DNA from: Massilia rubra
Lineage (GTDB): Bacteria > Pseudomonadota > Gammaproteobacteria > Burkholderiales > Burkholderiaceae_D
NCBI RefSeq assembly: GCF_011682065.1
Contig: NZ_VUYU01000013.1
Span: forward strand, 62,001 to 126,000
Direction of reading: 5' to 3'
DNA: 64,000 nucleotides
Each line of letters opens with the position of its first letter. The first letter of the stretch is position 1. Shown in pieces: positions 4,022 to 64,000 of this stretch. The notes under the pieces were generated by a model. The model made no database searches and had not been told where the DNA came from. It worked only from the letters and a program-made list of their open reading frames with translations. A program made the position numbers and the translations under genes.

Positions 4022-4046
4022 GCCGCCTGCCGGCGGCTACCCCCGC

Positions 4047-4082
4047 AACCGTCGTCCCGCATCGCCGCGGGCGACGGTTTTT
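4047..4082 (+). terminator. Rho-independent terminator after prfC
   Basis: The arms 4047-4060 and 4067-4080 pair with one bulged base around a 6-base loop. A T5 run ends the structure. It lies 26 bases after the prfC stop and faces the convergent cupin gene. Confidence 0.8.
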
Positions 4083-4125
4083 GCGTTTACACCACAACGG
4101 TTGCGCCACAACCGCCCGCCGACGC

Positions 4126-4530
4126 TTACCTGGCCGGCGTGGCGAGCGGCTGCTTCCTGTCGACCATGAACACGCCGACCAGGCGCATGCCGGCGCTGCC
4201 CGGGTTGTGGGCGTCATGCACCACCCCGGCCGGCACCACGAAGGCGTCGCCGGCGCGCAACAGGCGCGCTGGCGCCCCGTCTATGAGCAACTGGCCTTCG
4301 CCTTCGAGCACGTAGCCGATTTCATCGCCCGGGTGGGTGTGGCGCCCGGCGCGCGCGCCGGGCGCCAGTTCGACCCGCATCACCACCGCATCGGTGCCGG
4401 GAAACGAGGATGCGGCCCGGTGCACCGGCGTGCGCACGATGCCGCCCGCCGCCGGGGTAGGCGTGGGCGTGGGCGCGGCGCAGCCGGCCAGGCCCAGGCC
4501 GAGCAGGCAAACCAGGGCGGGGCGCCTCAT
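4126..4530 (-). CDS. Cupin-domain lipoprotein
   Basis: A 134-residue protein. The N-terminus from Met encoded at 4530 is a lipoprotein signal ending in the lipobox LAGC (Cys17), followed by a Thr/Pro-rich spacer. The rest is one cupin barrel. Motif 1 reads H-T-H-P-G-D-E-I-G-Y-V with the His, His, Glu metal ligands. Motif 2 reads G-D-A-F-V-V-P-A-G-V-V-H with the last ligand. This is the conserved metal-cupin pattern, but the substrate is unknown. The longer frame reading from 4602 is rejected because the start at 4530 yields the clean signal and an ATGA overlap with the upstream gene, implying co-translation. It is probably anchored in the envelope. Confidence 0.78.
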   Translation of the reverse strand: MRRPALVCLLGLGLAGCAAPTPTPTPAAGGIVRTPVHRAASSFPGTDAVVMRVELAPGARAGRHTHPGDEIGYVLEGEGQLLIDGAPARLLRAGDAFVVPAGVVHDAHNPGSAGMRLVGVFMVDRKQPLATPAR

Positions 4531-4883
4531 GGCGTCGCTTTCGCGTCGCGCGCGATGGCGCGCGCCAGCAGCCAGGCGTCGACCACGCTGGCCAGCCAGC
4601 ACACCAGCATCACGCTGGCGGCCAGGTTCATCATGGGCGAGGCGGCGTCGCCCTGCTGGTGCAGGCGTTCGGCGATCAACACCGGATCGGCCGGCAGCGC
4701 GCCGCGCAGGACTTCATCGACCAGCGCCGAGGCGCTGTCCATCACCTTTTTGAAAAAATAGATGGCCGCCATCAGGGTCGGCACGATGAACAGGCAGGCG
4801 CGCGCGCGCCGGCGCAGGTAATACTGGCCGGCGCCCGGAAACACCAGGCCTGACAATAACAGGGCGACAACTGAACGATCCAT
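4527..4883 (-). CDS. Small membrane protein of unknown function
   Basis: About 118 residues. The start at 4883 is chosen because AGGAAGAGAG lies directly upstream, whereas the longer frame has no such site. Residues 1-15 form a hydrophobic stretch with a G-A-G-Q-Y-Y-L-R-R turn, seen in small TM2-like or DUF-type inner-membrane proteins. Two more hydrophobic segments follow, near residues 25-45 and 85-105. It is co-transcribed with the cupin lipoprotein. I do not recognise a specific family and cannot assign a role. Confidence 0.6.
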   Translation of the reverse strand: MDRSVVALLLSGLVFPGAGQYYLRRRARACLFIVPTLMAAIYFFKKVMDSASALVDEVLRGALPADPVLIAERLHQQGDAASPMMNLAASVMLVCWLASVVDAWLLARAIARDAKATP

Positions 4884-4925
4884 CTCTCTTCCTAGACTGG
4901 TTGGCGCGGTCCGCACGATTGATCC

Positions 4926-5003
4926 TGCGCAAACCGGCGCCCCGCGCGAACGCGTAAATTTACCTATGCGCTCAGGAAACATTGCGCAAACTCATTTTGC
5001 GCA
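4926..5003. promoter_or_regulatory. TGCGCAAA-type sites in divergent promoter region
   Basis: Between the leftward membrane-protein gene and the rightward Cache gene lie a perfect 7-bp inverted repeat (4984-4990 with 4996-5002, 5-base spacer) and a third TGCGCAAA copy at 4926-4933. The arrangement suggests an operator for a shared regulator. This is inference from spacing only. Confidence 0.35.
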
Positions 5004-5074
5004 GGCCGGCGGGCAGACAATGATACCTGCGCCGGCGCCGGAATGCGCGTTCATCGACGTTGAAGGACATCATA

Positions 5075-5539
5075 GTGAAGATTCTCATCAAGGCTGGCGT
5101 CTGGCTGGCCTGTTTCTGGGGCGCGGCGGGGGCATGCGGCGTGACGGCGGCGGCCGAACCGAGCGAAAAGGATGCGGTCGCGCTGGCCGAAAAGGGCGCG
5201 CGCTTCATGCGCCTCAAGGGGAAGGAAGAAATGATCCGCCTGATCATTTCCCGTGACCCCGAGTACAACCAGGGCTCGCTGTACCTGGCCATGCGCGACC
5301 TGGGCGGCATCACGGTAGCCCATCCGACCGTGGCCCTGATCGGCAAGGACCTGCGCGATGTCCCGGACGCCGATGGAAAACTGTTCCGCCACGAGATGAT
5401 TGCGGTCGCCAACGGTCCGGGGCGCGGCTGGGTCGACTACAAGTTCAAGAATCCGGTCAGCGGCAAGGTCGAGGCCAAGACCACGTATGTGTTGCGCATT
5501 GGCGACGTGGCCCTGGAAGCCGGCGTCTACAAGCACTGA
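5075..5539 (+). CDS. Secreted single-Cache sensory protein
   Basis: About 154 residues. GTG 5075 is preferred over TTG 5060 because AAGGA (5063-5067) sits 7 bases before it. The first ~26 residues are a Sec signal peptide with a hydrophobic core ending T-A-A-A. The mature part carries the marks of a small Cache domain: an alpha-helical entry with K-G-A-R-F, a DLGG-ITVAHP strand segment, K-DLRDVPDADGK-LFRHEM, and the closing W-DYKF-NP-SGK---K-TYV strand run. Cache domains bind small ligands in the periplasm. The gene ends one base before the chemoreceptor start, so it may serve as a detached ligand-binding subunit. The ligand cannot be told. Confidence 0.78.
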   Translation: MKILIKAGVWLACFWGAAGACGVTAAAEPSEKDAVALAEKGARFMRLKGKEEMIRLIISRDPEYNQGSLYLAMRDLGGITVAHPTVALIGKDLRDVPDADGKLFRHEMIAVANGPGRGWVDYKFKNPVSGKVEAKTTYVLRIGDVALEAGVYKH

Positions 5540-5540
5540 C

Positions 5541-7163
5541 ATGCTCGAGCGCCTGCGTATCGGTCCCAAGCTGCTGCTCGCACCGTGCATGGTGCTGATG
5601 CTGCTGATCGCCTCGTCCGGCAGCGCGTGGCATGCGATGGCGCGCCAGAACCAGGCGTTCGAGATCATCGTCAACGAGCGCGCCGCGCGCATCCGCGAGG
5701 CCGGCGAACTGGCCAGCGACGCCCAGCAGGCGCACGCGCGCATGTATCAGCTGCTGACCTGGATCGGCGCCAGTTTTTCGGCGCCGCGCATCGATGGGCT
5801 GGGCCAGGATATCTATCGGCGCCACGCCGCCATCGAACACAGGTTCGCGGCCCTGACGCGGCGCACCGGCGGCCATGGTCCGGAGCAGCGCTTCATCGCC
5901 CAGGCCGGGGCCGCGCACGCCACCTACGTGCGCGCCATCCTCGACGTGATCGAGTTTTCGCCGGTCGATCATTCGATGAGCGCGAACGCCATGTCCAAGG
6001 CCGAACAGGCCTTCGCCGTGGTGACGCAGCGACTGGCCGAACTGGCGCGCTTCGAGCAGGAACTGAGCGAGCAGGCGGCCAGCCGCGCGGCCGCCGATCT
6101 TGCCGCCTTGTCGGTGCTGATGCCGCTGCTGGTGGCGCTGTCGATGGTGGCCACGTTCGGCATCAGCATGCTGGTGCGGCGCGCGCTGTTGCGCGGCGTG
6201 GCGGGCATCAGCGCGGCCGCCGGCGAACTGGCCAGCGGCAACCTGACCCCAAAAAACCGCAGCTACGGGCGCGACGAAATCGCCGACAGCGCGCGCACGC
6301 TCGACGCGGCCGTCGGCGCCCTGAACGCCACCCTGAAAAGCATGCTGGCCTCGGCGCGCTCGATCGACACGGCCTCGCGCGATATCGCCACCGGCAGCGC
6401 CGGACTGTCCACCCATGCCAGGGCCCAGGCCGGCGTGCTGCGACGCGCGGCCGGCACGGTGGGCGCGCTTGGCGCGGCGGCCGGCGGCGCGCTCGAGGGC
6501 GCGCGCGGCGCCAACCGGCTGGCCGACGAAGCGTCGATGCAGGCCCTGTGCGGCGGCGGCGTGCTGGACCGCCTGGTCTTGTCGATGGCTGCGCTGCGCG
6601 GCAGCGCGCAGCGCATGGCGCAGGTGGCGGGGGTGATCGACAAGCTGGCTTGCCAGACCAATGCGCTGGCGCTCAATGCGGCGGTGGAAGCGGCCAGGAT
6701 CGGGGAGCAGGGCAGCGGCTTTGCCGCGCTGGCGGGAGAAGTGCGCGCGCTGGCGCAGCGAACGGCTGGCGCCGCGCAGGAAATCGAGGGCCTGATCGCG
6801 CATTCGCTGGCCGACATCGACGGCGGCAGCGCCATCGCCTCGGAGGCGGGCGCGCGCATGGCCGGCATTGCGCAGTCGGTGCAGCAGGTGGGGGACATGG
6901 TCGGCCGGATCGGGCAAGCGAGCGTGGGCCAGGCCGGCGTGATTGGCGCGGTGAGCGAGGCGATCGTCGAGATCGACCAGATGACGCGCCACAATTCGGT
7001 GCTGGTGAAAGAGGCCGCAGCGGCGGCCCGAAGGCTGCAAGGCCAGGCTTCAAGCCTGTCGACAGCGGTCGGCGGGTTCCAGCTTGAGGACAGCGTGCCC
7101 GAGATGGAAGGGCCGCCGAAGAAAGCCGCGCCGCATCTGCGGCTCGCTTCCCGGCGGCCCTGA
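5541..7163 (+). CDS. Methyl-accepting chemotaxis protein
   Basis: A 540-residue chemoreceptor. TM1 lies near residues 9-30. A ~160-residue helical periplasmic domain of four-helix-bundle style follows, then TM2 near 195-215 (LVALSMVATFGISMLV), a HAMP region, and the cytoplasmic coiled coil. The signalling tip reads I-D-K-L-A-C-Q-T-N-A-L-A-L-N-A-A-V-E-A-A-R followed by G-E-Q-G-S-G-F-A, the conserved hairpin with which CheA and CheW interact. The C-terminus ends basic (HLRLASRRP) without a CheR pentapeptide. It begins one base after the Cache gene stop, so the two are co-expressed. Confidence 0.9.
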   Translation: MLERLRIGPKLLLAPCMVLMLLIASSGSAWHAMARQNQAFEIIVNERAARIREAGELASDAQQAHARMYQLLTWIGASFSAPRIDGLGQDIYRRHAAIEHRFAALTRRTGGHGPEQRFIAQAGAAHATYVRAILDVIEFSPVDHSMSANAMSKAEQAFAVVTQRLAELARFEQELSEQAASRAAADLAALSVLMPLLVALSMVATFGISMLVRRALLRGVAGISAAAGELASGNLTPKNRSYGRDEIADSARTLDAAVGALNATLKSMLASARSIDTASRDIATGSAGLSTHARAQAGVLRRAAGTVGALGAAAGGALEGARGANRLADEASMQALCGGGVLDRLVLSMAALRGSAQRMAQVAGVIDKLACQTNALALNAAVEAARIGEQGSGFAALAGEVRALAQRTAGAAQEIEGLIAHSLADIDGGSAIASEAGARMAGIAQSVQQVGDMVGRIGQASVGQAGVIGAVSEAIVEIDQMTRHNSVLVKEAAAAARRLQGQASSLSTAVGGFQLEDSVPEMEGPPKKAAPHLRLASRRP

Positions 7164-7165
7164 CT

Positions 7166-10063
7166 TTACTCGTAGTCGCTGATCGGCGCGCAACCGCAGA
7201 ACAGGTTACGGTCGCCGTACACATTGTCGGCGCGGCCGACCGGCGGCCAGTACTTCTGCTTGCGCAGCGACGCCACCGGGAAGGCGGCCGCCTCGCGGCT
7301 GTACTTGTGCTCCCAGACGTCGGCGGTGACCACTTCGGCCGTGTGCGGCGCACCTTTGAGCGGATTGTCCATGCGGTCGTACTCGCCGCGCTCGACCTTC
7401 ACGATCTCGGCGTGGATGGCGATCATGGCGTCGATGAAGCGGTCCATCTCGGCCTTCGACTCGCTTTCGGTCGGCTCGATCATCAGCGTTCCCGGCACCG
7501 GGAAGCTCATGGTCGGCGCATGGAAACCGAAGTCCATCAGGCGCTTGGCCACGTCTTCGTTGCTGATGCCGGTGGCGTCAGTGATCGGACGCAGGTCCAG
7601 GATGCACTCGTGCGCCACCAGGCCGTCGTGGCCCGTGTACAACACCGGATAGTGCGGCGCCAGCCGGCGCGCGATGTAGTTGGCGGCCAGGATCGCCGTT
7701 TCGGTGGCGGCGGTCAGGCCTTCGCCGCCCATCATCGCGATGTACATCCACGAAATCGGCAGGATGCTGGCCGAGCCGAAGGGCGCCGCGCTGACCGCGC
7801 CGATGCCCGCTTCGTCACGCGTGTAGCCGGTCGAACGCTGGTTCGGCAAGAATTTGGCCAGGTGCGCGCCCACGCCGATGGGACCGACGCCGGGGCCGCC
7901 GCCGCCATGCGGGATGCAGAACGTCTTGTGCAGGTTCAGGTGGCTGACATCGCCGCCGAAGCTGCCCGGCGCCGCCACGCCGACCAGCGCGTTCATGTTG
8001 GCGCCGTCGATGTAGACCTGGCCGCCGTGCGAATGAATGATCTCGCACAGCTCGGCGATGCCTTCTTCGAACACGCCGTGGGTCGATGGATAGGTGACCA
8101 TCACGCAGGCCAGGTTGGCGCTGTGCTGTTCGGCCTTGGCCTTCAGGTCCGCCAGGTCGACGTTGCCGCTGGCGTCGCAGGCGGTGACGACCACCTTCAT
8201 GCCGACCATATTGGCCGACGCCGGGTTGGTGCCGTGCGCCGACGAGGGGATCAGGCAGATATTGCGATGGCCTTCGCCGCGCGATTCATGGTAAGCCTTG
8301 ATCACCAGGAGGCCCGCGTACTCGCCCTGCGAGCCGGCGTTCGGTTGCAGCGACACGGCCGCGTAGCCGGTCAGCGCGCACAGCATGTCTTCCAGCTGGC
8401 CGATCATCTCGCGGTAGCCGACCGTCTGCGCGTCGGGTGCGAACGGGTGGATGTTGGAGAACTCGGGCCAGGTGACCGGGATCATCTCGCTCGTTGCGTT
8501 CAGTTTCATGGTGCAGGAGCCGAGCGGGATCATGGTGCGGTCCAGCGCCAGGTCCTTGTCGGCCAGGCCGCGCAGGTAGCGCAGCATTTCGTGTTCCGCG
8601 TGGTAGCGGTTGAAGGTCGGATGCGTCAGATACGTGCTGCTGCGCGCCAGCGCTTCAGGGAAGCCGTCCTGCGCGCTCGCATCAAACGCGTCGAAATCGG
8701 GCGACGCCGGGGCGTTCGGGACGCCTTGCGAGAAGATCGTCCACAGCAGCGCGATATCTTCGCGGGTGGTGGTTTCGTCGAGCGAGATGCCGACGTGCTT
8801 GTCATCGACCTTGCGCAGGTTCACGCCGTGTTCGATGGCGATGGTGTGCAGTTCGGCCGCGCGCGCGCTCTTGACGGTGAGCGTGTCGAACCAGGTCGTG
8901 TTGACGATCTCGTAGCCGAGCTGGCCGAGTTTGGCGGCGGCGATGGCGGTGAAGCGGTGTACACGTTGGGCGATGCGCTGCAAGCCTTTGGGGCCATGGT
9001 AGACGGCGTACATCGAGGCCATCACCGCCAGCAGGACCTGCGCGGTGCAGATGTTGGAGGTGGCTTTTTCGCGGCGGATGTGCTGCTCGCGCGTTTGCAG
9101 CGCCAGGCGGTACGCCTTGTTGCCTTGCGCGTCGATGGTCACGCCCACCAGGCGGCCGGCCATGCTGCGCTTGAATTCGTCGCGCGTGGCCAGGTAGCCG
9201 GCGTGCGGGCCGCCGAAACCGAGCGGCACGCCGAAGCGCTGGCTGTTACCGACGACCACGTCGCAGCCCCAGTCGCCCGGAGGCGTCAACAGGGTCAACG
9301 CCAGCAGGTCGGCGGCGGCGACGACCATGGCGCCGGCCGCGTGCAGTTTTTCGACGGCGGCGCGGTAGTCGCGCACATCGCCATTGACGCCCGGGTACTG
9401 GATCAGCACGCCGAAGCAGGGCTCGGTCAAGGCGCCGATGTCGGCCGCCGCGATCGTGCGCACTTCCACGCCGATCGGCTGGGCGCGCGTCTGCACCACT
9501 TCCAGCGTTTGCGGCAGCACGTCGTCGGCGACGTAAAACACGTTCGAGGCCGACTTGCCGACGCGCTGGATCAGGGTCATGGCTTCGGCGGCGGCGGTGC
9601 CCTCGTCGAGCATCGACGAGTTGGCGATGCCCATGCCGGTCAGGTCGGTGATCATTTGCTGGAAGTTCAGGATCGCTTCCAGGCGGCCTTGCGAAATCTC
9701 GGGCTGGTAAGGCGTGTAGGCGGTGTACCAGGCCGGGTTTTCAAAAATATTGCGCAGGATGACGCCCGGCGTGTGGCTGTTGAAGTAGCCCTGGCCGATC
9801 ATCGACTTCATGACCTTGTTCTTGGCGGCGAGCGCCTTGAGTTTGCCCAGCGCCGCCTGCTCCGGCATCGGCTCGAAGAACTGGCCCAGTTCCAGCTTGC
9901 TCTTCTTGCGGATATTGGCGGGCACGATGGCGTCGATCAGCGCCGCGCGCGACGGATAGCCGAGCGTGGCCAGCATGGCTGCCTGTTCGGCGGTGGACGG
10001 GCCGATATGGCGCGGGATGAACGAGTCGCGTGCTTCGAGTTGGGTCAGGCTGGTGCGGGTCAT
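7166..10063 (-). CDS. gcvP: Glycine dehydrogenase (decarboxylating), P-protein
   Basis: A 965-residue PLP enzyme, near the E. coli length (957). It decarboxylates glycine and passes the aminomethyl group to the lipoyl arm of GcvH. Homologous N- and C-terminal halves are present. The N-terminal half has RHIGPS and [16 protein letters not shown]. The C-terminal half holds the PLP lysine in [16 protein letters not shown], within a Gly-rich loop, with DGANMNA before it. It is the last gene of the leftward gcvT-gcvH-gcvP operon controlled by the glycine riboswitch. Its stop lies two bases from the stop of the convergent chemoreceptor gene, with no terminator visible between them. Confidence 0.98.
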
Positions 10064-10101
10064 GGTAGTTGGGGGCCGGTAGTGGAGCCGAAAAAGGGAC
10101 T

Positions 10102-10164
10102 GCCGCCGCTGGACGCGGCGGCGGACTGAAAAGAAAGGCCGCCGCGATGGTCATCGGGGCGGCC
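10102..10164 (-). other. Intergenic hairpins between gcvH and gcvP
   Basis: The 108-base gap between gcvH and gcvP holds two GC-rich inverted repeats, one around 10102-10123 and one with arms 10138-10144 and 10158-10164. Neither has a U-run on the minus strand, so they look like mRNA-processing or stability elements rather than terminators. Confidence 0.4.
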
Positions 10165-10171
10165 AGGAGTT

Positions 10172-10552
10172 TTACTCTGCGGTGGCTTTGCCGTAAGCGG
10201 TGGCGTCGAGCAGGCCGTCGATGGCGCCGGCGTCGCTCGGCTTGATCTTGAACAGCCAGGCCGCGTAGGCGTCGGTGTTGATCGAGTCCGGCGCGTCGGC
10301 GACACTGTCGTTGACGGCGATGCACTCGCCCGACACCGGCGAATAGATGTCGCTCGCTGCCTTGACCGATTCGACCACGGCGGCGTCGTCGCCGGCGGTG
10401 AAGACCTTGCCCACTTTTGGCAGTTCGACGAAGACGATGTCGCCCAGCGCGTCCTGCGCGTATTCGGTGATGCCGACGGTGAGGGTGCCGTCAGCTTCGG
10501 CGCGTACCCATTCGTGGGACTCGGTGTATTTCAGGTCGGCTGGGATGTTCAT
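10172..10552 (-). CDS. gcvH: Glycine cleavage system H protein
   Basis: 126 residues, standard length. It carries the lipoyl-lysine arm that shuttles the aminomethyl group between P, T and L proteins. The lipoylation site is Lys64 in ESVKAASD. The flanking [14 protein letters not shown] and YSPVSGE segments are the usual hammerhead barrel. GGAGC precedes the start by 7-8 bases on the minus strand. It is the middle gene of the operon. Confidence 0.97.
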
Positions 10553-10614
10553 AGTGTTTGCTCCAAAAGGTCGCGGTCGATGTAAATACTGCTCATTAGT
10601 GTAGGTGCCAGGAA

Positions 10615-11733
10615 TCAGGCAGCGAGGATTTTACCGTTTCGCACGAACGGCAGCTTGATCACGCTGGCGGCCAGCTTCTTGTCGCGGATTTCGACGTGCA
10701 CGGTGTCGCCTACGGCCACGCCCATCGGCACGCGCGCCAGCGCGATCGCTTCCTGCATGGTCGGGCTGAAGGTGCCGCTGGTGATCTCGCCGGTGGTGCC
10801 GTCGGCGGCGAGCACTTTCTGGTGCGCGCGCAAGATGCCGCCTTTTTCGCGCAGGATCAGGCCCACGTACTGGGCATTCTGGCCCATCGCCTTGAGCGCG
10901 GTCTTGCCGATGAAGTCGCGCTCGGCGGCCAGGTCGATGGTCCACGCCAGGCCGGCGTCGAGCGGGTTGACCGTGTCGTCCATGTCCTGGCCGTACAAAT
11001 TCATGCCCGCTTCCAGGCGCAAGGTGTCGCGCGCGCCCAGGCCCGCCGGCTTGACGCCGGCCGCCACCAGCGCATTCCACAGGTTCTCGGCCTGCGAAGC
11101 GGGGAAGGCCAGCTCGAACCCGTCTTCGCCGGTGTAGCCGGTGCGCGCCACCATCACGTCGCCGAAGGCGGTGTCCTTGACGATGACGGCGTTAAATGGC
11201 TTGAGTGGCTCGGAGGCGGCCTGGGTGGTTGGCAGTACCTGCCACACCTTGGCGCGCGCGTTCGGGCCCTGCACGGCGATCAGCGCCATTGGTTCGTTGC
11301 CGTCGCGGCGCTCGGTGATCGTCACGCCGCTTTTGGTGGCGTCGTTCTGGGCGCTGATCCAGGCCACGTCTTTTTCGGCGGTGCCGGCGTTGACGACCAG
11401 GCGGAACCAGGTCTCGCTGAAGAAGTAGACGATCAGGTCGTCGATGACGAAGCCCTGCGGATTGAGCATGCACGAATACAGGGCCTTGCCGGCCACTTGC
11501 AGCTTGTCGACGTTATTGGCCAGCAGGGCGCGCAGGAAAGGGCGGGCGTTCTCGCCTTCGATATCGACCACGCACATGTGGGAGACGTCGAACATGCCGA
11601 CATCGCCGCGCACGGCGTGGTGTTCTTCGATTTGCGAGCCGTAATTGACGGGCATGTCCCAGCCGCCGAAATCGACCATCTTGGCGCCGGCGGCGCGGTG
11701 TGCGGAATTGAGCGGGGTCGCTTTAAGCGTCAT
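10615..11733 (-). CDS. gcvT: Aminomethyltransferase (glycine cleavage T protein)
   Basis: 372 residues. It transfers the one-carbon unit from GcvH to tetrahydrofolate and releases ammonia. Family marks visible are the N-terminal [27 protein letters not shown] block, D-V-S-H-M, the catalytic-region segment [12 protein letters not shown], and [13 protein letters not shown]. First gene of the leftward operon, with the tandem glycine riboswitch in its leader. The lipoamide dehydrogenase of the system is not in this window. Confidence 0.97.
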
Positions 11734-53786: not shown

Positions 53787-54020
53787 ATGGCAACCTTGAA
53801 GCACTCACGCGATAAGCCTCGTGTTATCGCTGCGACCGGGCCAGCCGACGCAGTAGCCGACGCAGTAGCCGACGCGGTAGCGGAAGAGCCGATCGAAAAA
53901 CGCCGTGCCCGACGTATGGCTGCTCTAAAGAAGATTGCAGGTATTTGGGCGCAGCGCCCGGATATCCCGGCGGACGGCTTGGACTATCAAAGAGAGTTGA
54001 GATCCGAATGGCGGGATTAG
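53787..54020 (+). CDS. VapB-like antitoxin
   Basis: 77 residues. Upstream partner of a PIN-domain toxin and overlapping it by 13 bases, the usual antitoxin-first order. There is no recognised DNA-binding fold in the first half. Residues 20-33 are A-D-A-V repeated three times from a 12-base tandem repeat, followed by a basic segment (K-R-R-A-R-R-M). The C-terminal W-A-Q-R-P-D-I-P-A-D-G-L-D-Y-Q-R-E-L-R-S-E-W resembles the toxin-binding tails of VapB/Phd-type antitoxins. CGGAGG lies 6 bases before ATG 53787. Confidence 0.7.
   Translation: MATLKHSRDKPRVIAATGPADAVADAVADAVAEEPIEKRRARRMAALKKIAGIWAQRPDIPADGLDYQRELRSEWRD
53844..53879 (+). repeat. Three 12-base tandem repeats in the antitoxin gene
   Basis: GCCGACGCAGTA is repeated at 53844, 53856 and 53868 (one base change in the last), giving in-frame Ala-Asp-Ala-Val units. 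Copy number could change by slippage without frameshift. Confidence 0.85.
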
Positions 54021-54487
54021 TTCTGTTCGACACCAATATCCTGATCGACTGGAGCAAGGGCTACGCGCAAGCGCTAATCGAACTGTCGCATTGGGACAAT
54101 CCGGCCATCAGCGTGATTACCTGGATGGAGCTGTATGGCGGCGCCGACTTGACCGACGTACCGCGATTCGACGAATTCATGGTCGATTTCGGCTTCGAAA
54201 TTATCGAGATCGACGCTGTGATCATGCAGGCGGCAGCAGCCATCATGTCCGAGCGTCGACGCTTGGGTCCTAAAATTGGATTGGCGGACGCGATCATTCA
54301 GGCAACAGCTGACATCAAAAAGCTGACGATCATCACACGCAATACGAAGGATTTCCGGCGGCAGGACGTGCGCGTGCCTTACGAGCTAAAAACGACATCG
54401 ACGGTGACGATTATAAACGTCGACCCTCCTGGAGACACGCCACTCCCGCCACGATCAAGACGGAGTGCGCTGAAGCGTACCAAATAA
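54008..54487 (+). CDS. VapC-like PIN-domain toxin
   Basis: 159 residues, a little long because of a C-terminal tail (~25 residues, P-P-R-S-R-R-S-A-L-K-R). The four acidic PIN residues are visible: Asp in L-F-D-T-N-I-L-I-D-W, Glu in W-M-E-L-Y-G-G, Asp in G-L-A-D-A-I-I-Q-A, and Asp in T-R-N-T-K-D-F-R. PIN toxins are Mg-dependent RNases that cut tRNA or rRNA. Start ATG 54008 overlaps the antitoxin; the longer frame from 53945 is not used. Confidence 0.88.
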   Translation: MAGLVLFDTNILIDWSKGYAQALIELSHWDNPAISVITWMELYGGADLTDVPRFDEFMVDFGFEIIEIDAVIMQAAAAIMSERRRLGPKIGLADAIIQATADIKKLTIITRNTKDFRRQDVRVPYELKTTSTVTIINVDPPGDTPLPPRSRRSALKRTK

Positions 54488-55833: not shown

Positions 55834-56865
55834 TCACAGAAAGTCGAAAGCGCTGAACAGCCTTTTCCACCCGGCGCCGTCGTGCAGGCAAGCGCCGTAT
55901 GGGCCGGCGGTCAGGAGGAATTTGCCATCGGGAGTGACGTCGAGCCGGCCGCTGTTGGTCGCATTCGGCGCGTCGCTCTCCGTGTCGGCCAGCGGCACCA
56001 GTGTTTTGTGTTCGGCGTCGATGAGCCACACGCCTTCCTGGCCACCCAAATACAGCCGGTCGTTAAACCATGCCGAATCGACCGGTTGAAAGCCGGCTGC
56101 AATGTCGGACGTCGCGACGCGGGTCCATTTGCCTTCGCGGCCTGCCCACACGCTTCCATTCAATTCCGTGATATAGACTTGCCCGTCGCCGGCGCAGCAG
56201 ACGGTGTACAGCGGCGCCTTGGTCGGCAAGCGACAGTCATGCCAGGTTTTTCCATCGAATCGCCAGGCATCGCCATCGCCGCCGACGGCGTACATGTCGT
56301 CCGGCGAAAAGGCGCTCATGTCGCGGAATCCCATGCTCATGAAGTAGCTCGACCTGGTTTCGATATCGGGCGGCATGGGGACGCCTTTGCCTTCGCTTCC
56401 CAGCTCGATCCATTGTTCGACGCCGATGCGGCGATAAATCTTGCGGTAGCTCCCCAGGGCAAACACCTGGCCGGCGGCGCGCACCATTTTCCTGACAACG
56501 CCGACGCCGTTTTGATGCGTGCGCATATCGATGACTTCATCGATCGCTCTTTCCGTGTTGTTGCGCTGGGCGCTACCAGAATAGACATTGCTTCTGGTGT
56601 CGACAGCGACATATTCGGCAGGGCTGGTGCCGCGAACAACGGTGCAAAAATTGAAATCTCCCACTTCAACCATGGGCAGCGAACCGACCGTTATCGGCTT
56701 GTCGTACATGACGCTGAGAAGCCGGGTACGCGGCAAGAGATCCCGGTTTTCCTTTTCTTCGATCAGGACCAGGAAAAATCCATGCTCGCGAAAAATGGCG
56801 CAGTCGTGGATTGTGTAGCCGCGCAGGTATTTGTTCCAGGTCGACTCGTTGAAAATGGAATTCAT
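55834..56865 (-). CDS. Predicted beta-propeller-like protein of unknown function
   Basis: About 343 residues after choosing ATG 56865 (N-S-I-F-N-E-S-T-W). The longer reading would start inside the exonuclease gene. The body shows repeating W-R-F-D-G-K-T-W, Y-T-V-C-C-A-G-D-G-Q-V-Y and V-W-L-I-D-A-E blocks, a pattern of blades as in WD40/YCF48-type propellers, and there is no signal peptide. No enzyme motif was recognised. It lies 49 bases downstream of the exonuclease gene on the same strand, so the two are probably co-transcribed. Confidence 0.6.
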   Translation of the reverse strand: MNSIFNESTWNKYLRGYTIHDCAIFREHGFFLVLIEEKENRDLLPRTRLLSVMYDKPITVGSLPMVEVGDFNFCTVVRGTSPAEYVAVDTRSNVYSGSAQRNNTERAIDEVIDMRTHQNGVGVVRKMVRAAGQVFALGSYRKIYRRIGVEQWIELGSEGKGVPMPPDIETRSSYFMSMGFRDMSAFSPDDMYAVGGDGDAWRFDGKTWHDCRLPTKAPLYTVCCAGDGQVYITELNGSVWAGREGKWTRVATSDIAAGFQPVDSAWFNDRLYLGGQEGVWLIDAEHKTLVPLADTESDAPNATNSGRLDVTPDGKFLLTAGPYGACLHDGAGWKRLFSAFDFL

Positions 56866-56914
56866 TGTGTTGTAGATGCCGTAGTCAGGGAAATGCGTCG
56901 TTTGGGCAGGCGCG

Positions 56915-57448
56915 TCAAAAGAACAGGTAAGGCGCCAGATTGGCCATATTGCGCGCGTCGTCGATCCCGCGGTGCGGTTGCCCTTCAAACTCAAGTCCGA
57001 CTTTGGCCAGCGCCTGTTCGAGTCCGCACGGCTTTCGCATGCTCATATTGTCGGCGAAGCGCTTCTTGATGTTGATGTGTTCATCGCCGAACGGATAGCG
57101 AACGTCATGGTACGCACAGTCTTGTCGCAACTGATGCTTGTCGTAGTCGCCCCAGCTGCAAAAAACCGCATCATCGAATGAGGCTATCCAGGTGGAGAAA
57201 CGCTCCATGACGGCGCCAAAGGCGTCGGCGCTGTCCACTTCTTGCTGCGGGATGTTTGTCAGCTGCTTGCAAAAGGCGGTCAGCTGCGTGTGCCGGACTG
57301 GTTTGACGAATGACTGGAACTCGCCGAGCGTGAACGGGCCATTGCCGTGCAAAGCGACCGCACCAATCTCGATGATCTCCATTTCATCCCGCGCAATCTG
57401 TTCGGTGTTGCAGCAGGTTGCCTCGAAATCGACAATGATGTAAGTCAT
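56915..57448 (-). CDS. DEDDh-type 3'-5' exonuclease
   Basis: 177 residues. The exonuclease core begins I-V-D-F-E-A-T (first D-x-E). The second acidic motif sits in S-W-G-D-Y-D-K, and the last motif G-Q-P-H-R-G-I-D-D-A-R-N carries the His and Asp. This set is the ERI-1/KapD-like and RNase T-like group rather than proofreading subunits, and there is no other domain. Target not known. The start at 57448 follows TGGAACC. The upstream reading of 41 codons has no ribosome site. Confidence 0.85.
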   Translation of the reverse strand: MTYIIVDFEATCCNTEQIARDEMEIIEIGAVALHGNGPFTLGEFQSFVKPVRHTQLTAFCKQLTNIPQQEVDSADAFGAVMERFSTWIASFDDAVFCSWGDYDKHQLRQDCAYHDVRYPFGDEHINIKKRFADNMSMRKPCGLEQALAKVGLEFEGQPHRGIDDARNMANLAPYLFF

Positions 57449-58124: not shown

Positions 58125-58601
58125 ATGAGCCAATACAATATCGACGAAGCCAGCTTCGAGCTGCATCCCAGCTTGAAAGACCGCACGGTCAATCAATTCA
58201 TCATCAATGACTCCGGTCCGAGCGATTTCTCTTTCGTTATCTCGCGCGCCGAGGCCTTCACCGAAACGACCGTCGATGCTTTCGCCGATACGCTTGCCAA
58301 CGAGATGCGCAAGGCATTGCCAAAGTTCGAACTGCTCAACAAGCGCGCGCTCGTCGTCGACGGCTCGGCGGCGATGGAATTGTACTTTTCCTGGCGCAAC
58401 GGCGATACCGAAATGCATCAGCGCCAGGTCGCTGTCTTTGTCCAGGCCGCCAGCGCTGACCGTAGCAAGGCATTGCTGCTGACCGGCACCAGTTATGGCG
58501 CCTTCAAGGACGAGTGGAATCTGGCGTTCGAGACCATGCTCGGCAGCATGCGCCTGCACGCGCCAGTGCCAGCTGTGGCCCAGCCGGCGCAGGAGTCCTG
58601 A
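58125..58601 (+). CDS. EagR-type (DUF1795/DcrB) chaperone of the Rhs effector
   Basis: 158 residues. Members of DUF1795 (EagR) bind and shield the N-terminal membrane helices of prePAAR effectors and load them onto VgrG. Visible features are the compact alpha/beta fold with N-Q-F-I-I-N-D-S-G-P-S-D-F-S-F-V-I-S-R-A, a central V-D-G-S-A-A-M-E-L-Y-F-S-W-R, then R-Q-V-A-V-F-V-Q and a terminal L-A-F-E-T-M-L-G-S-M-R-L, typical of this family. ATG 58125 is taken as the start. Its stop is directly followed by the TTG of the Rhs gene, whose ribosome site AGGAG lies inside this gene's 3' end. The gene order chaperone-Rhs is diagnostic. Confidence 0.85.
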   Translation: MSQYNIDEASFELHPSLKDRTVNQFIINDSGPSDFSFVISRAEAFTETTVDAFADTLANEMRKALPKFELLNKRALVVDGSAAMELYFSWRNGDTEMHQRQVAVFVQAASADRSKALLLTGTSYGAFKDEWNLAFETMLGSMRLHAPVPAVAQPAQES

Positions 58602-61600
58602 TTGGGCGCGGCGGCCGGACGTATCGACGATCCCATTGCCCATAGCCATGCCATGGCCGGTCTGGTGGTCGGTTTGGCGCTGGGCGCGGTCGCGGGCGTG
58701 GTGGCGGCCGCGCTGGTTGGTGTCGCCGTCATCGCCACCGGCGGCCTGGCCCTGGTCGCCGTCGCTGGGGTGGTGGCGGCAGCGGCCGGTGGCGCTGGTG
58801 TCGGGGAAGTGATCGGTTCGATGGACATAACGAGCCAGATATTCGGCGCCAACGTGACCGGGCTGGTCAAGACCGGCTCGCCGAACGTGTTTGCGAACGG
58901 CAAGGCGGTGGCACGTGCCCAGGTCGATGTCGCCGCCTGCTCCAGCCACGCCCCCACGCCCCAGCTTGTGGCGGAAGGCTCGTCCACGGTGTTCGTCAAC
59001 GGCAAGCCCTTTGCCCGCGTGGGCGACATGATTCTGTGCAGCGCAAAGATACAGTCCGGCTCGCCCAATGTCTTCGTGGGCGGCCCGACGGACACCACGA
59101 TGGCAGAACTGATCACGCCCGAGGTCTCGGACGAGGTGCATATGGCACTGCTGGTCGCAGGCGTGGGCGCCGGCTTGTTGGTGGCCGGCCCGGTGGTCGT
59201 GGGCGTCGCACTGGTGGGCGGCTACGTGGGCGGTGCGGTCGGCGCTTGGGCCGGTGGCGTGCTGTTCGGCAAAGGTTCGGACGGCCAGAAGGCGATGATG
59301 CTGCTTGGCGCCTGGCGCGGGGGCGCGTGGGGCGCCAAGTTAGGGACTGGCGTTGGCAACAGGGTCATTGCCGATCCGAAGACACCGGCCACTGCCTTTA
59401 TTAAAGAAGGCTTGCCCGGCATGAAGAAATTCAACGCCGCCAAGGAACGGCCGGACGAGACCATCTGCAAGTGCGGCGATCCGATCGACGTCGTCACGGG
59501 CAATGTCATCCTGGAACAGCCCGATATTGCCTTGCCGGGCGCATTGCCGATCGTTCTGCGCCGCCTGCACAACTCGGGCAATCCGAGTGGCACGGTATTC
59601 GGCAAAGCCTGGGCCAGCACCTGGGGCCAATGGATCGAAGTCGTCGGCGAGGCGGAGCTGGTGTTCCATGCCGAGGACGGCGCATCGATGCGTTTCGACA
59701 TGCCGGAGCCGGGCGCGAGCGTCACCCATTGCGTCTATCAAGCTTACAGCGTGACCCGGCGTGACGACCACTTCTTGCTCGAGCAGCGGCACCAGCCTAC
59801 TTTGCGTTTTGATCAGCGCAACGCGAGCCACTGGCATCTGTCGGCCATTACTGACCGCAACGCCAACCAGATTGGGCTGGTCTACGACGGCGCGGTGCTG
59901 ACCGAGGTGCGCCACAGCGGTGGCACGCGGCTCAAGGTCGATGCCAGCGAGCACGCCATCAGCCGCATCAGTTTGCTGGAAGCGAACGGCGCACTGACCA
60001 CACTGGTCAGCTACACTTACCATGATGATGGCGAGCTGTCAGCTATCGTCAACAGCAGCGGCTTGCCGCTTACCTACACCTATGACGATGCCCATCGCCT
60101 GACGCGTTGGCAAGATCGTAATGGCGTGTGGATTGGCTACCGTTACGATGCCAAGGGGCGTTGCGAGCAGACCAGCGGCGGTCGAGGCGGCCACATGACC
60201 GGCGGCTTCGTCTACGACGACGAGCGCAAGGTCAACACGTACACCGATTCACTGGGTCACCCGACCGAATTCCACTACAACGACGCACTCCAGGTCATCA
60301 AGCAAGTCGATGCCCGCGGCGGAGTCAGCCAGTTCGACTACGACGCGCACTACAACCTGGTCACTGCGCTCACGCCGGGCGAGGCGGTTCTGCGCTGGGC
60401 ATACGATGCGCGTGGCAATATGGTCGGGCACATCGATGCGTTGAGCAAAGAAACGGTGGTGAACTACAACCAGCTCGACTTTCCGGTCGCCGTGACCTCG
60501 CCGGATGGCAAGCGCGTTGAGCGCGTGTACGATGAACGCGGCAACCTGGTCCAGGTCGGAGAGAGCGGCGCGTGGACGCGCTTCGAGCATGACGCGCACG
60601 GTAATGTGCTGCGCGTCATCAATCCAGCCGGTGCCACGGCCGCCTTCGCGCACGATCAGCGCGGTTTGCTGACCAGTGCCACCGATTGGCTGGGCAACCC
60701 GACCCGGCTCACGCGCGACGCCTTTGGCCGCGTTACCGCGCGCACCGACCCGCATCAAAATACCAGCCACTATGTTTACAACGTCGAAGGGAAGGCGCTG
60801 GAGATCGCTTTGCCGGACGGTGCGCGTCACCTCGCCAAGTACGATCCCGAAGGCAATTGCATCGTCCGTACCGATGCGCTGGGCAATGTGACACGCCATG
60901 CTTATGGCGCCTTCGACAGGCTGACACAGACCACCGAGGCCAACGGCGCCGTCACGCGCTACGAGTACGATACCGAGCTGCGCCTGGTTGCCGTTATCAA
61001 CCCGACCGGCGAGCGCTGGAGCTATGCGAGAAACGCTACCGGCGATGTGATTGCGGAAACCGATTTTGCCGGTCGCAAGGTCGAATACGACGTCGATGCC
61101 GACGGTCTGGTTATCGGGAAACGCACGCCTTCGGGCCAGCACACGCGTTACCGGCGCAACCACGCCGGCCAGTTGCTTGAGCAGATCGCCAGCGAGGGTA
61201 GCACCCACTATACTTACGATGCGCTGGGTCGCTTGAGCAGTGCCGTCAACGCCGACAGCGACATCCGCTTCGAGCGCGATGACCAGGGCCGCGTTGTCAG
61301 GGAAACCCAGAACGGCCGCAGCATCACCAGCGATTACGACCTGATGGGCCGGCGCACCGAGCGCGCCAGTTCCTGCGGGCATAGCAGCGTTTGGGAATTC
61401 GACGCCAACAGCCTGCCGATTGAGTTGACGCTGCCGGATGCGCAGACGTTCAGTTTCCTTCATGACAGCAGCGGGCGCGAAACGGGTCGTCAATTGCCGG
61501 GTGGCGTCCGTATCGACCAGCAATATGATCAGCTCAATCGTCTGACCCGTCAGTGGACTGGCATCGGGGCGGACAAAGGCGGTCAGGCGCGCACGCTGCA

Positions 61601-62942
61601 GGAACGCGCGGTCAATTACGACGGCAACGGCAACCCGCGCAAGCTGGGCGAGCGCAGCGCCGGCGTCATCGATATCGGTTACGACAAGGTTGGCCGGGTT
61701 ACGCAAGCGAGCCGCGACAAGGGCGGCGAGCAGTATGCCTATGATCTGGCGGGCAATCTGATCGACGCCATCAAGCAAAAGGCGCTGCTCGGCAGCGACG
61801 AGAGCAATGCCGATGCGAGGGGGCAACGTGTTCATCGGCGCGGCAGGCTCATGCAAGCTGGCAAGGTCAAGTATGAGTACGATCTTGAAGGCCGCGTGAT
61901 TACCCGCATGGAAGGCAAGCGCTGGGGCCGGCAACAGCATTGGCATTATGTCTGGAACAGTGAGAACCGCCTCAAGCGCGTGATCACGCCCGATGGCGAT
62001 GCCTGGGAATACACGTACGATGCCTTGGGCCGCAGGCTGAGCAAAAAGCAGGTTCCGAGCGATGGCACTGCGCGCTTTACGGAAGTCGATTACCTGTGGG
62101 ATGGTCACACGGTCGCGGAAGAGCGGCGCTTTGGCAGGAAGCCCGATGGCAATGGCGGATCGGAGCTCATCGAGGAGATTTGCGCCACCTGGGACTACGA
62201 GCCCGACAGCTTTAGGCCACTCGCCAAAACAGAGACGATCCGGCGCAAGGGCAAGGAAACCAGCCAGACGTATGCGGTGGTGCTGGACCATATCGGAACG
62301 CCAAAGGAGTTGATCGATGCCGACGGCGGTATTGCGTGGCAAGCGAAAAGCAATTTGTGGGGCGAGGTCGAGGAAACGATGGTCAGCAAGACCGACTGCC
62401 CGATCCGCTTCCAAGGGCAGTATTACGATGACGAATCGAAGCTGGCCTACAACTGGCATCGCTATTATGATGCGAGTACCGGGCGGTATCTGACGCCGGA
62501 TCCGTTGGGCTTGGAGGGTGGGCCCAATCCGTATGCCTATGTCGATAATCCGTTGAGTTCCACTGATCCGCTAGGGTTGATGGATGAATGTAAGCCGGCA
62601 AATTCAGGCGCCAAATCTGCAGATGGGCAAGATGAGGGACCGCTGCTTCCTGACAAGTACTGGATTGATAAGCGACCGCTCACGCAGGTAACGCCGGGTA
62701 TAAGGAAAATAGATTTAACGAAGGCAAGTTCCGCTGGGGGAGAGTATCATCAAACTATTCATTACGATAAGTATGGAAGGGAGATTGCTCGCACTGACAG
62801 GACAAGTCACGGATACAATAACCCGAATGATCCCCATTATCACCCTAATCCGCACCATCATCGGGTTCATCCGGTTACAAGAGAGCAACTAAAAGACCCT
62901 GCAAGCGGTAAACGACTTTGGCCGGGTGTATTTGATGATTAA
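58602..62942 (+). CDS. prePAAR-PAAR-Rhs polymorphic toxin (predicted T6SS effector)
   Basis: 1446 residues with a TTG start (AGGAG at 58591-58595, 6 bases before). Residues 4-16 match a prePAAR motif (A-A-G-R-I-D-D-P-I-A-H). A hydrophobic Gly/Ala/Val region at ~17-66 (two helices) follows, then a PAAR domain ~79-161 (tip of the VgrG spike), a second Gly-rich hydrophobic region ~181-222, and the Rhs cage from ~290 (C-G-D-P-I-D-V-V-T-G-N-V) with many Y-D-x-x-G-R units. The core closes with G-R-Y-L-T-P-D-P-L-G-L, P-N-P-Y-A-Y-V-D-N-P and D-P-L-G-L (~1322-1326), where relatives self-cleave. Residues 1327-1446 are the toxin tip. The immunity gene candidate starts 13 bases after the stop. No VgrG or apparatus genes are in the window, so delivery is inferred. 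Confidence 0.93.
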   Translation: MGAAAGRIDDPIAHSHAMAGLVVGLALGAVAGVVAAALVGVAVIATGGLALVAVAGVVAAAAGGAGVGEVIGSMDITSQIFGANVTGLVKTGSPNVFANGKAVARAQVDVAACSSHAPTPQLVAEGSSTVFVNGKPFARVGDMILCSAKIQSGSPNVFVGGPTDTTMAELITPEVSDEVHMALLVAGVGAGLLVAGPVVVGVALVGGYVGGAVGAWAGGVLFGKGSDGQKAMMLLGAWRGGAWGAKLGTGVGNRVIADPKTPATAFIKEGLPGMKKFNAAKERPDETICKCGDPIDVVTGNVILEQPDIALPGALPIVLRRLHNSGNPSGTVFGKAWASTWGQWIEVVGEAELVFHAEDGASMRFDMPEPGASVTHCVYQAYSVTRRDDHFLLEQRHQPTLRFDQRNASHWHLSAITDRNANQIGLVYDGAVLTEVRHSGGTRLKVDASEHAISRISLLEANGALTTLVSYTYHDDGELSAIVNSSGLPLTYTYDDAHRLTRWQDRNGVWIGYRYDAKGRCEQTSGGRGGHMTGGFVYDDERKVNTYTDSLGHPTEFHYNDALQVIKQVDARGGVSQFDYDAHYNLVTALTPGEAVLRWAYDARGNMVGHIDALSKETVVNYNQLDFPVAVTSPDGKRVERVYDERGNLVQVGESGAWTRFEHDAHGNVLRVINPAGATAAFAHDQRGLLTSATDWLGNPTRLTRDAFGRVTARTDPHQNTSHYVYNVEGKALEIALPDGARHLAKYDPEGNCIVRTDALGNVTRHAYGAFDRLTQTTEANGAVTRYEYDTELRLVAVINPTGERWSYARNATGDVIAETDFAGRKVEYDVDADGLVIGKRTPSGQHTRYRRNHAGQLLEQIASEGSTHYTYDALGRLSSAVNADSDIRFERDDQGRVVRETQNGRSITSDYDLMGRRTERASSCGHSSVWEFDANSLPIELTLPDAQTFSFLHDSSGRETGRQLPGGVRIDQQYDQLNRLTRQWTGIGADKGGQARTLQERAVNYDGNGNPRKLGERSAGVIDIGYDKVGRVTQASRDKGGEQYAYDLAGNLIDAIKQKALLGSDESNADARGQRVHRRGRLMQAGKVKYEYDLEGRVITRMEGKRWGRQQHWHYVWNSENRLKRVITPDGDAWEYTYDALGRRLSKKQVPSDGTARFTEVDYLWDGHTVAEERRFGRKPDGNGGSELIEEICATWDYEPDSFRPLAKTETIRRKGKETSQTYAVVLDHIGTPKELIDADGGIAWQAKSNLWGEVEETMVSKTDCPIRFQGQYYDDESKLAYNWHRYYDASTGRYLTPDPLGLEGGPNPYAYVDNPLSSTDPLGLMDECKPANSGAKSADGQDEGPLLPDKYWIDKRPLTQVTPGIRKIDLTKASSAGGEYHQTIHYDKYGREIARTDRTSHGYNNPNDPHYHPNPHHHRVHPVTREQLKDPASGKRLWPGVFDD
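62580..62942 (+). other. C-terminal toxin tip of the Rhs protein (unassigned)
   Basis: The last ~120 residues after D-P-L-G-L. Key features are H-Y-D-K-Y-G-R-E-I-A-R-T-D-R-T, then an H/N/P-rich stretch with H-Y-H-P-N-P-H-H-H-R-V-H-P and a closing G-K-R-L-W-P-G-V-F-D-D. Seven His in ~25 residues suggest a metal-dependent nuclease or hydrolase active centre; I could not assign a family with confidence (a type 24-like polymorphic toxin is a guess). GC is lower: a 60-base row at 62701 has 24 G+C against 40 in a row at 60361 of the Rhs core. Confidence 0.6.
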
Positions 62943-62955
62943 ATTAGGGAAAAAC

Positions 62956-63408
62956 ATGGACTCAATCACCATTGCGCTTTTCGCAATTATTCAAGCAAAG
63001 TATGTTAATGTGGATTTCTTAAATAGCTGGGCTATTAGGATGCGGTGTAAATTACCCGAACATACCGATTGGCTGGGTCAACTGGAGGTTTGCCAGAACC
63101 TTGAGTGTGCTGAAGGCGTGCTCAGAGAAGAAGTGATAAATTCTGGGATTGATGTAAGTAAAACTTTGCCAAAACTATTTGTGGGCTTCCTATATTTGCG
63201 ACTGAAGAAAAAAGAGTTGACCTTGCAGGAGTTTGAAAGTGAGCTGATCGATATTGCCGATGCTTACGATATAGCGGGACTGGAAATTGAGCGCATCAAA
63301 GTCGCACTTCCTGAATTGGAAGCGAATTTTGAATTTCAGAAACTACTCGACGAGATGGCGTGCCAGAGTTTAGACCACTTACGCCAGGTTGAAGCGTTAG
63401 CGATTTAG
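62956..63408 (+). CDS. Candidate immunity protein for the Rhs toxin
   Basis: 150 residues, predicted mostly helical and acidic (calculated by eye). AGGGA lies 5 bases before ATG 62956, 13 bases after the Rhs stop. A small, low-GC (25 of 60 in the row at 63181), family-less protein directly behind a polymorphic toxin is the standard position of an immunity gene. I do not recognise an immunity family in it. It would protect against kin toxin by binding the tip. Confidence 0.7.
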   Translation: MDSITIALFAIIQAKYVNVDFLNSWAIRMRCKLPEHTDWLGQLEVCQNLECAEGVLREEVINSGIDVSKTLPKLFVGFLYLRLKKKELTLQEFESELIDIADAYDIAGLEIERIKVALPELEANFEFQKLLDEMACQSLDHLRQVEALAI

Positions 63409-63701: not shown

Positions 63702-64000
63702 GTGGCTAAGTTTTCGTTAATCAGAGGGTGGTTGGAATGTTCTTTTGAGGATATTCCTCAAATAAGAGTAGCGATAGATGAGCATTGGAAATATTATGAG
63801 CCTTACGCTCTGACGGAAAAGCAGGCGGAATTATATAAAAACGGCTGGATTTTCCCTTCCGCTCCGATCAACTGGATCAGTCTCGTATTTTACGGCGGCA
63901 ATGTGAACGAACGAGCCACTCAGTTCTTGAAGGAGTGTCTCGAAAAAATATCACGCATGGAGTTGGAGGTCTGCGGGACATTTTTTGTTGATGACGAAGA
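63702..64000 (+). CDS. Unidentified protein, 5' part, in the toxin locus
   Basis: GTG 63702 with GGGGGA 6 bases before. 99 complete codons run to the window edge. The visible start is A-K-F-S-L-I-R-G-W-L-E-C-S-F-E-D-I-P-Q-I-R-V; later comes I-N-W-I-S-L-V-F-Y-G-G-N-V-N-E-R. Composition is low GC (23 of 60 in the row at 63781), so it probably belongs to the same imported cargo, perhaps a second immunity gene. It continues beyond the window. Confidence 0.6.
   Translation, partial: MAKFSLIRGWLECSFEDIPQIRVAIDEHWKYYEPYALTEKQAELYKNGWIFPSAPINWISLVFYGGNVNERATQFLKECLEKISRMELEVCGTFFVDDE

Follow-up and report, generated by a model that had tools for sequence, protein, structure and literature searches.

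A probable type VI Rhs effector module on a platform with exchangeable toxin tips in Massilia rubra: a tip outside the catalogued families and a likely orphan immunity gene

We have analysed a stretch of 64,000 nucleotides from Massilia rubra (contig NZ_VUYU01000013.1, positions 62,001 to 126,000 of the forward strand; hereafter the window, in whose coordinates all features are given). Within its last 6 kb lie four genes in the same direction, coding for an Eag-type chaperone, a large PAAR/Rhs protein and two small proteins. The locus raises the question of whether these genes make up a module that supplies a type VI secretion system (T6SS) with an effector, which system could load it, and what its toxin and the small genes behind it may be. 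In our view the locus is, with high probability, a class I Rhs effector module of prePAAR type, serving a T6SS encoded elsewhere in the genome and carried on a platform whose toxin tips are exchanged. Judged from its sequence, the module would be intact and of an ordinary, already well described T6SS Rhs type, with a tip that is not catalogued and, in all probability, an orphan immunity gene.

The first gene (58125..58601, + strand) codes for a protein of 158 amino acids (aa) that matches the DUF1795/DcrB (Eag) family PF08786 with 82.5 bits, against a Pfam cut-off of 27.2, and has homologues in the genus; the profile comparison thus agrees with the first-pass annotation, which had called it an EagR chaperone of the DUF1795 family. 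Since an eag gene adjoins about 90% of prePAAR effector genes (PMC7773334), the chaperone-effector-immunity module is a well described type, and the gene order, as that annotation had proposed, is the one known for T6SS Rhs effectors. The spacing that it gave was also found: the stop codon TGA of the chaperone gene (58599-58601) abuts the TTG start of the effector gene at 58602, with 0 bases between them, the third gene begins 13 bases after the effector stop, and an AGGAG, the probable ribosome-binding site of the effector, lies inside the chaperone gene (58591..58595, + strand) and ends 6 nt 5' of the TTG. The sequence AGGAGTCCTGATTG, which covers the AGGAG and the TTG start, is identical in the five of five sister loci of the genus in which the effector start was read, which speaks for the TTG as start codon and for a translational coupling. 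A coupling of chaperone and effector through the AGGAG/TGA/TTG arrangement is therefore plausible.

The effector gene (58602..62942, + strand) codes for 1446 aa. Its frame is not a chance one: single-base shuffling of the 4341-nt gene, repeated 200 times, gave no open frame longer than 303 codons, against 1446 in the gene itself. The protein matches PAAR (79.7 bits, cut-off 27), DUF6531, RHS_repeat (PF05593, 240 bits) and RHS in Pfam, and Rhs_assc_core (TIGR03696, 82.8 bits). Its N-terminal part (58608..59054, + strand) combines a prePAAR-like motif, a hydrophobic region (aa 15-72) and the PAAR domain (aa 85-151), as read from Pfam and hydropathy. Near the other end, the region RYLTPDPLGL...NPLSSTDPLGL (62484..62579, + strand) is a predicted site of aspartyl self-cleavage: NPLSSTDPLGL fits PxxxxDPxG[WLF], and Asp1300 and Asp1322 stand 22 residues apart, as do Asp1324 and Asp1346 of RhsA (PMC8765631). 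The putative toxin domain, or tip, of 120 aa (62580..62942, + strand) begins after DPLGL (residue 1326) and is delimited by its position behind the motif, by its relatives and by a drop in G+C content, which is 62.9% in the effector without the tip, 47.7% in the tip, 43.0% in the third gene and 42.8% in the fourth.

In such a module, the chaperone would screen off the hydrophobic N-terminal end of the effector, PAAR would dock onto the spike formed by VgrG, and the Rhs cocoon would enclose the tip, which would be cut free after DPLGL. The tip, small and probably mostly beta, would then act as a poison in the cytoplasm of rival cells, a nuclease activity being the most likely mode, although this is a guess; the 150-aa product of the third gene would neutralise it in kin, and the fourth gene would be a leftover immunity gene against a Tox-REase-3 tip that a sister species carries on this platform.

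Which system could load this effector? The first-pass annotation had seen no vgrG or tss gene in the window, and this stands for VgrG, TssC and Hcp, while other tss families were not searched for over the window. The genome itself (7.57 Mb in 118 contigs) holds two TssC genes, 12 VgrG matches (11 of them over the cut-off) and seven Hcp matches. In a scan of ten chosen reading frames from the neighbourhoods of the TssC genes, we found an AAA+ ATPase of ClpB/ClpV type, TssF, an FHA protein, TssM, TssK and TssJ around the one on contig C31, and TssL, TssK and TssF around the one on C32, where a further frame of 216 aa gave only a TPR match. By gene content, the genome thus carries two T6SS loci. 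Since none of the TssC, VgrG and Hcp matches of the genome lies on the contig of the window, loading from a distance is possible, and loading of the effector by a T6SS encoded elsewhere, as the annotation had supposed, would be a reasonable reading. Of the two findings that would have told against the annotation, a first gene outside DUF1795 and a genome with no T6SS, neither was made. The other long Rhs matches in this genome are at most 33% identical to the window Rhs and lie on contigs C33, C118, C74, C42 and C60; short ones reach 50%. On C33 a DcrB match stands beside an Rhs frame, and on C60 three frames follow one another, for VgrG, for DcrB and for a PAAR-like protein.

The comparison within the genus argues for a common platform. 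In 17 genomes searched, that of the window included, EagR homologues 82-88% identical to the window chaperone were found in four other species; at E <= 0.001, seven of the 17 genomes gave any match. The homologues comprise six full-length copies and a partial match of 76% identity, which was left aside. Among the six full-length loci examined (L095-L100), five (L096-L100, from three genomes) hold six long Rhs frames that end in the cleavage motif and a tip. Their Rhs cores are 76-87% identical to that of the window, the 87% frame being one without an N-terminus, while their tips differ by eye and have a G+C content below that of their own cores; the only one of the six tips over a Pfam cut-off is a Tox-REase-3. 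At L095 no complete Rhs frame was found by pattern, and DNA similarity to the core extends to near the end of the contig. From these comparisons, the window effector is one allele of a tip-swapping platform common to several species of the genus, and we propose that the tip and its immunity gene form an exchangeable A+T-rich cassette on that platform. In the L096 locus (genome G192, reverse complement), two Rhs frames stand in tandem (3018-7364 and 7922-11515), the second of which lacks an N-terminus but has a tip of its own, followed by a small gene; this may be a reservoir of tips.

Two described systems resemble the locus. In the Pseudomonas protegens EagR1-RhsA-RhsI locus, the chaperone-effector-immunity order and the prePAAR-like/PAAR/Rhs layout are the same, and RhsA shares the PxxxxDPxGL cleavage motif; unlike the window, P. 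protegens has vgrG1 upstream of eagR1, and the window effector has an extra hydrophobic stretch after PAAR (PMC8765631, PMC7773334). The Serratia marcescens Rhs1 locus (EagR1, Rhs1, RhsI1) likewise combines an Rhs core with an exchangeable tip-immunity cassette. Orphan immunity genes lie downstream in it, one of them with a homologue that in another strain is the cognate immunity gene of the tip. In contrast to the window, whose contig has no TssC, VgrG or Hcp match and whose tip, known from sequence, falls in no Pfam family, the Serratia locus ends a T6SS gene cluster and its tips are NADases of tested function (PMC10539506). In a literature search of limited coverage, we found no published report of the window locus itself. 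The window locus would carry over to another genus the pattern tested in Serratia, in which a single Rhs platform takes several exchangeable tips and the leftover immunity genes correspond to tips that sister species use.

The third gene (62956..63408, + strand) codes for 150 aa and is the putative cognate immunity gene. It starts with the ATG at 62956; from an alternative in-frame GTG at 62926, it would overlap the effector gene. We infer from its position that it neutralises the window tip, and its low G+C content and size fit an immunity protein. No credible Pfam family was found for it, and its sole match outside its own genome (two of 195 family genomes match) is a 49% identical protein in a congener (G148), whose gene stands amid small genes some 5 kb downstream of an Rhs frame that bears a different tip. 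Many small genes follow the Rhs frame in that congener (L064, 2741-11836), some of them similar to one another by eye, and the region is probably an immunity bank. KwaB (E 0.08; E 0.029) and PHROG matches (best E 0.0094) of the third-gene protein were rejected as weak.

The first-pass annotation had closed the string with this small gene at 63408. The gene is there, but the locus goes on with a fourth one (63702..64000, + strand) of 129 aa, which ends 91 bases past the window end (L020:9091). In L096, the gene that immediately follows the Tox-REase-3 tip (PF15647, 129 bits), in the immunity position and overlapping the effector stop by 4 nt, is a homologue of this fourth gene with 75.8% identity over 128 aa. 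Further homologues are a frame that follows another tip in L099 (71.9% identity over 96 aa) and, in the Pseudomonas locus L052, the gene immediately after a Tox-REase-3 fragment (40% identity over 119 aa). The window tip, unlike that of L096, has no PF15647 match. Since the homologue in L096 adjoins a Tox-REase-3 tip and the window tip differs, the fourth gene is, by these likenesses, most likely an orphan immunity gene against the Tox-REase-3 tip of the sister species. The Serratia Rhs1 locus has the same arrangement, and there the protection by the orphan was tested (PMC10539506).

For the tip itself, nothing in Pfam, NCBIfam or the PDB reached the threshold, a sequence search of the PDB gave nothing meaningful, and in the 195 family genomes it matched only its own genome. 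As a single-sequence query it gave matches in 57 of 398 genomes of the phylum at E <= 0.1; 11 of the 19 non-self loci from that search were inspected, and those that look like toxin tips are the end of a 4864-aa frame in genome G430 (L025, 43% identical) and an Rhs protein with RHS repeats (L027, 38% identical). In a profile search over 398 genomes of the phylum, two passed at E <= 0.001, namely the genome that holds the window and G430. A Fusobacterium plasmid protein, which has no Pfam match, is 41% identical over half of the tip. A first scan of genome contigs with the window tip alone found no relatives; pattern scans then gave 18 loci, nine of them from Pseudomonas and the others including Lachnospiraceae and other Clostridia, although these scans rest on short patterns and may miss relatives. 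No tip relatives were found in viral contigs and phages. The Pseudomonas poae locus L049 has the same tip sequence as L025, and the two are very probably one locus.

These relatives end proteins of very different kinds: haemagglutinin-type (CdiA-like) proteins, PT-HINT proteins of Lachnospiraceae, or Rhs proteins. DUF637 was found in all three Pseudomonas frames tested (L044, L045 and L049), two of which have haemagglutinin repeats, and a PT-HINT domain precedes the tip in L054 and L055. In four loci (L047, L048, L051 and L052) the tip stands in short frames of 107-199 aa, which are perhaps detached cassettes. Our alignments (A3 and A4) include 13 of the 18 pattern-scan loci; left out were L044, whose frame stops before the motif, the partial L057, the truncated L059 and L060, and L061, with a doubtful match of 17 residues. 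An alignment of 14 tips has 15 invariant columns, which include Y, D, Y, G, R, H, G, H and H-x-H, and the family has the signature YDxYGR...TxHG...H..PHxH. DUF2963 was rejected as a weak candidate for some of these relatives (best E 0.017, below the cut-off). For the L055 tip, whose model has a predicted local distance difference test score (pLDDT) of 76.5, the structure searches gave no trustworthy match (best Z 5.0, no Foldseek match at E <= 0.001); the polymorphic toxin PT7 (8owu) appeared at Z 4.0 among unrelated rows.

What family does this tip belong to? We give a little under an even chance to the reading that it is a polymorphic-toxin family unnamed in the libraries searched, separate from Ntox24, with an activity of its own and a model-less immunity family of 150 aa. 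If so, one unnamed tip family would be common to a T6SS Rhs effector, to CdiA-like haemagglutinin proteins of Pseudomonas and to PT-HINT toxins of Lachnospiraceae. The locus also points to a toxin domain that has no model in the libraries and is common to delivery systems of widely different kinds; through its conserved residues, its chemistry can be put to the test. A tenable but somewhat doubtful alternative is that the tip is a divergent Ntox24 domain (PF15529) acting as a metal-independent RNase. The sole Pfam-A match of the L055 tip is Ntox24 (15.3 bits, E 0.026), and the best Ntox24 match in that genome falls on this tip; however, the score lies below the curated cut-off of 24, as does every score seen in the tip family, the window tip has no Pfam match and reaches 2.2 bits on the Ntox24 profile, inside the decoy range, and the tips of L053, L047 and L052 give no Ntox24 match, nor was one located on the tip in the L053 and L048 genomes. 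With shallow profiles, hhalign sets PG...YD..G...R.D in register with the Ntox24 domains of Nostoc and Streptomyces at a probability of 31%, which falls to 4% when the alignment is led by the window tip. The Nostoc Ntox24 finds the relatives L046 and L058 at a BLAST E of 2e-6, in a database of only 14 sequences, and on the Ntox24 profile the best of the 14 tips scores 14.9 bits, against 13.4 for the best of 14,000 shuffled decoys; in the reverse comparison, three shuffled decoys score above the best true Ntox24 sequence. Some of the relatives share a faint YD..G...R.D pattern with Ntox24, whereas the tip family has further conserved H and PHxH positions. The RNase activity of Ntox24 is itself a prediction (PMC3482391). 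On these comparisons, the Ntox24 link is faint for the tip family, suggestive for its Firmicutes members and unproven for the window tip.

Several observations weigh against the reading of the locus as a class I module with its cognate and orphan immunity genes. The prePAAR_I match of the effector (23.4 bits) falls just below the Pfam cut-off of 25, and its motif, AGRIDDPIAH, has G for the second A of the published consensus AARxxDxxxH (PMC7773334) while keeping R, D and H; the sister effector of L099 has the exact form, AARVDDPIAH. Class I prePAAR effectors have one transmembrane region, before PAAR, according to the same source, and hydropathy gives the window effector a second hydrophobic, glycine-rich stretch after it (aa 178-217). 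The model of the window tip is poor (pLDDT 54.6), and fold searches of the PDB with it gave nothing significant and no trustworthy match. At E <= 10, neither the fourth gene nor its L052 homologue has a match to any Pfam family, those for immunity proteins included, while Imm7 and SUKH are listed as immunity families for Tox-REase-3 (PMC3482391). The 182-kb contig that bears the window (C23) has no VgrG, TssC or Hcp match. This last point would also fit a decayed or silent module, in which no VgrG of this genome loads the effector any more and only the immunity genes are kept under selection, as would the non-ATG start of the effector and the lack of a second close copy of the window Rhs in the genome. 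We regard such decay as distinctly improbable, since the effector frame is intact over its 1446 codons, the TTG start and AGGAG are kept in the sister loci read, all of which have long Rhs frames, and the genome does contain T6SS and VgrG genes.

The last point against concerns the pairing of the tip with the third gene. Six genes downstream of tip relatives (L046, L048, L053, L054, L055 and L023, that is, five of the 18 pattern-scan loci and L023) have no convincing similarity to it, the best comparison reaching 20.8 bits over 29 aa (E 0.004), and the pairing therefore rests on position. It could thus be argued that the third gene is another orphan and that the true immunity gene lies elsewhere or has been lost; its sole relative does not adjoin a tip of the window kind either. 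We find this unlikely, because the gene follows the toxin stop by 13 nt with a matching low G+C content, T6SS Rhs effectors have their cognate immunity gene at this very position (PMC10539506), and one toxin family may have several immunity families (PMC3482391). A cognate immunity gene in third place, followed by an orphan, stays our preferred reading of the two small genes.

Some minor features lie in and around this part of the window. Between 55000 and 64000 there is no Rfam match at gathering scores. Promoter-like sites number 6, against 2.8 (standard deviation 1.8) expected, and terminator-like sites 4, against 6.7 (standard deviation 2.4) expected; neither was used as evidence. On the minus strand, 55834-56994 codes for a 386-aa protein with no Pfam family over the cut-off and a faint Tectonin match (E 0.063). 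On the plus strand, 53787-54487 holds two small overlapping frames, possibly a toxin-antitoxin pair, the second of which begins in a way that we take to resemble a PIN-domain toxin.

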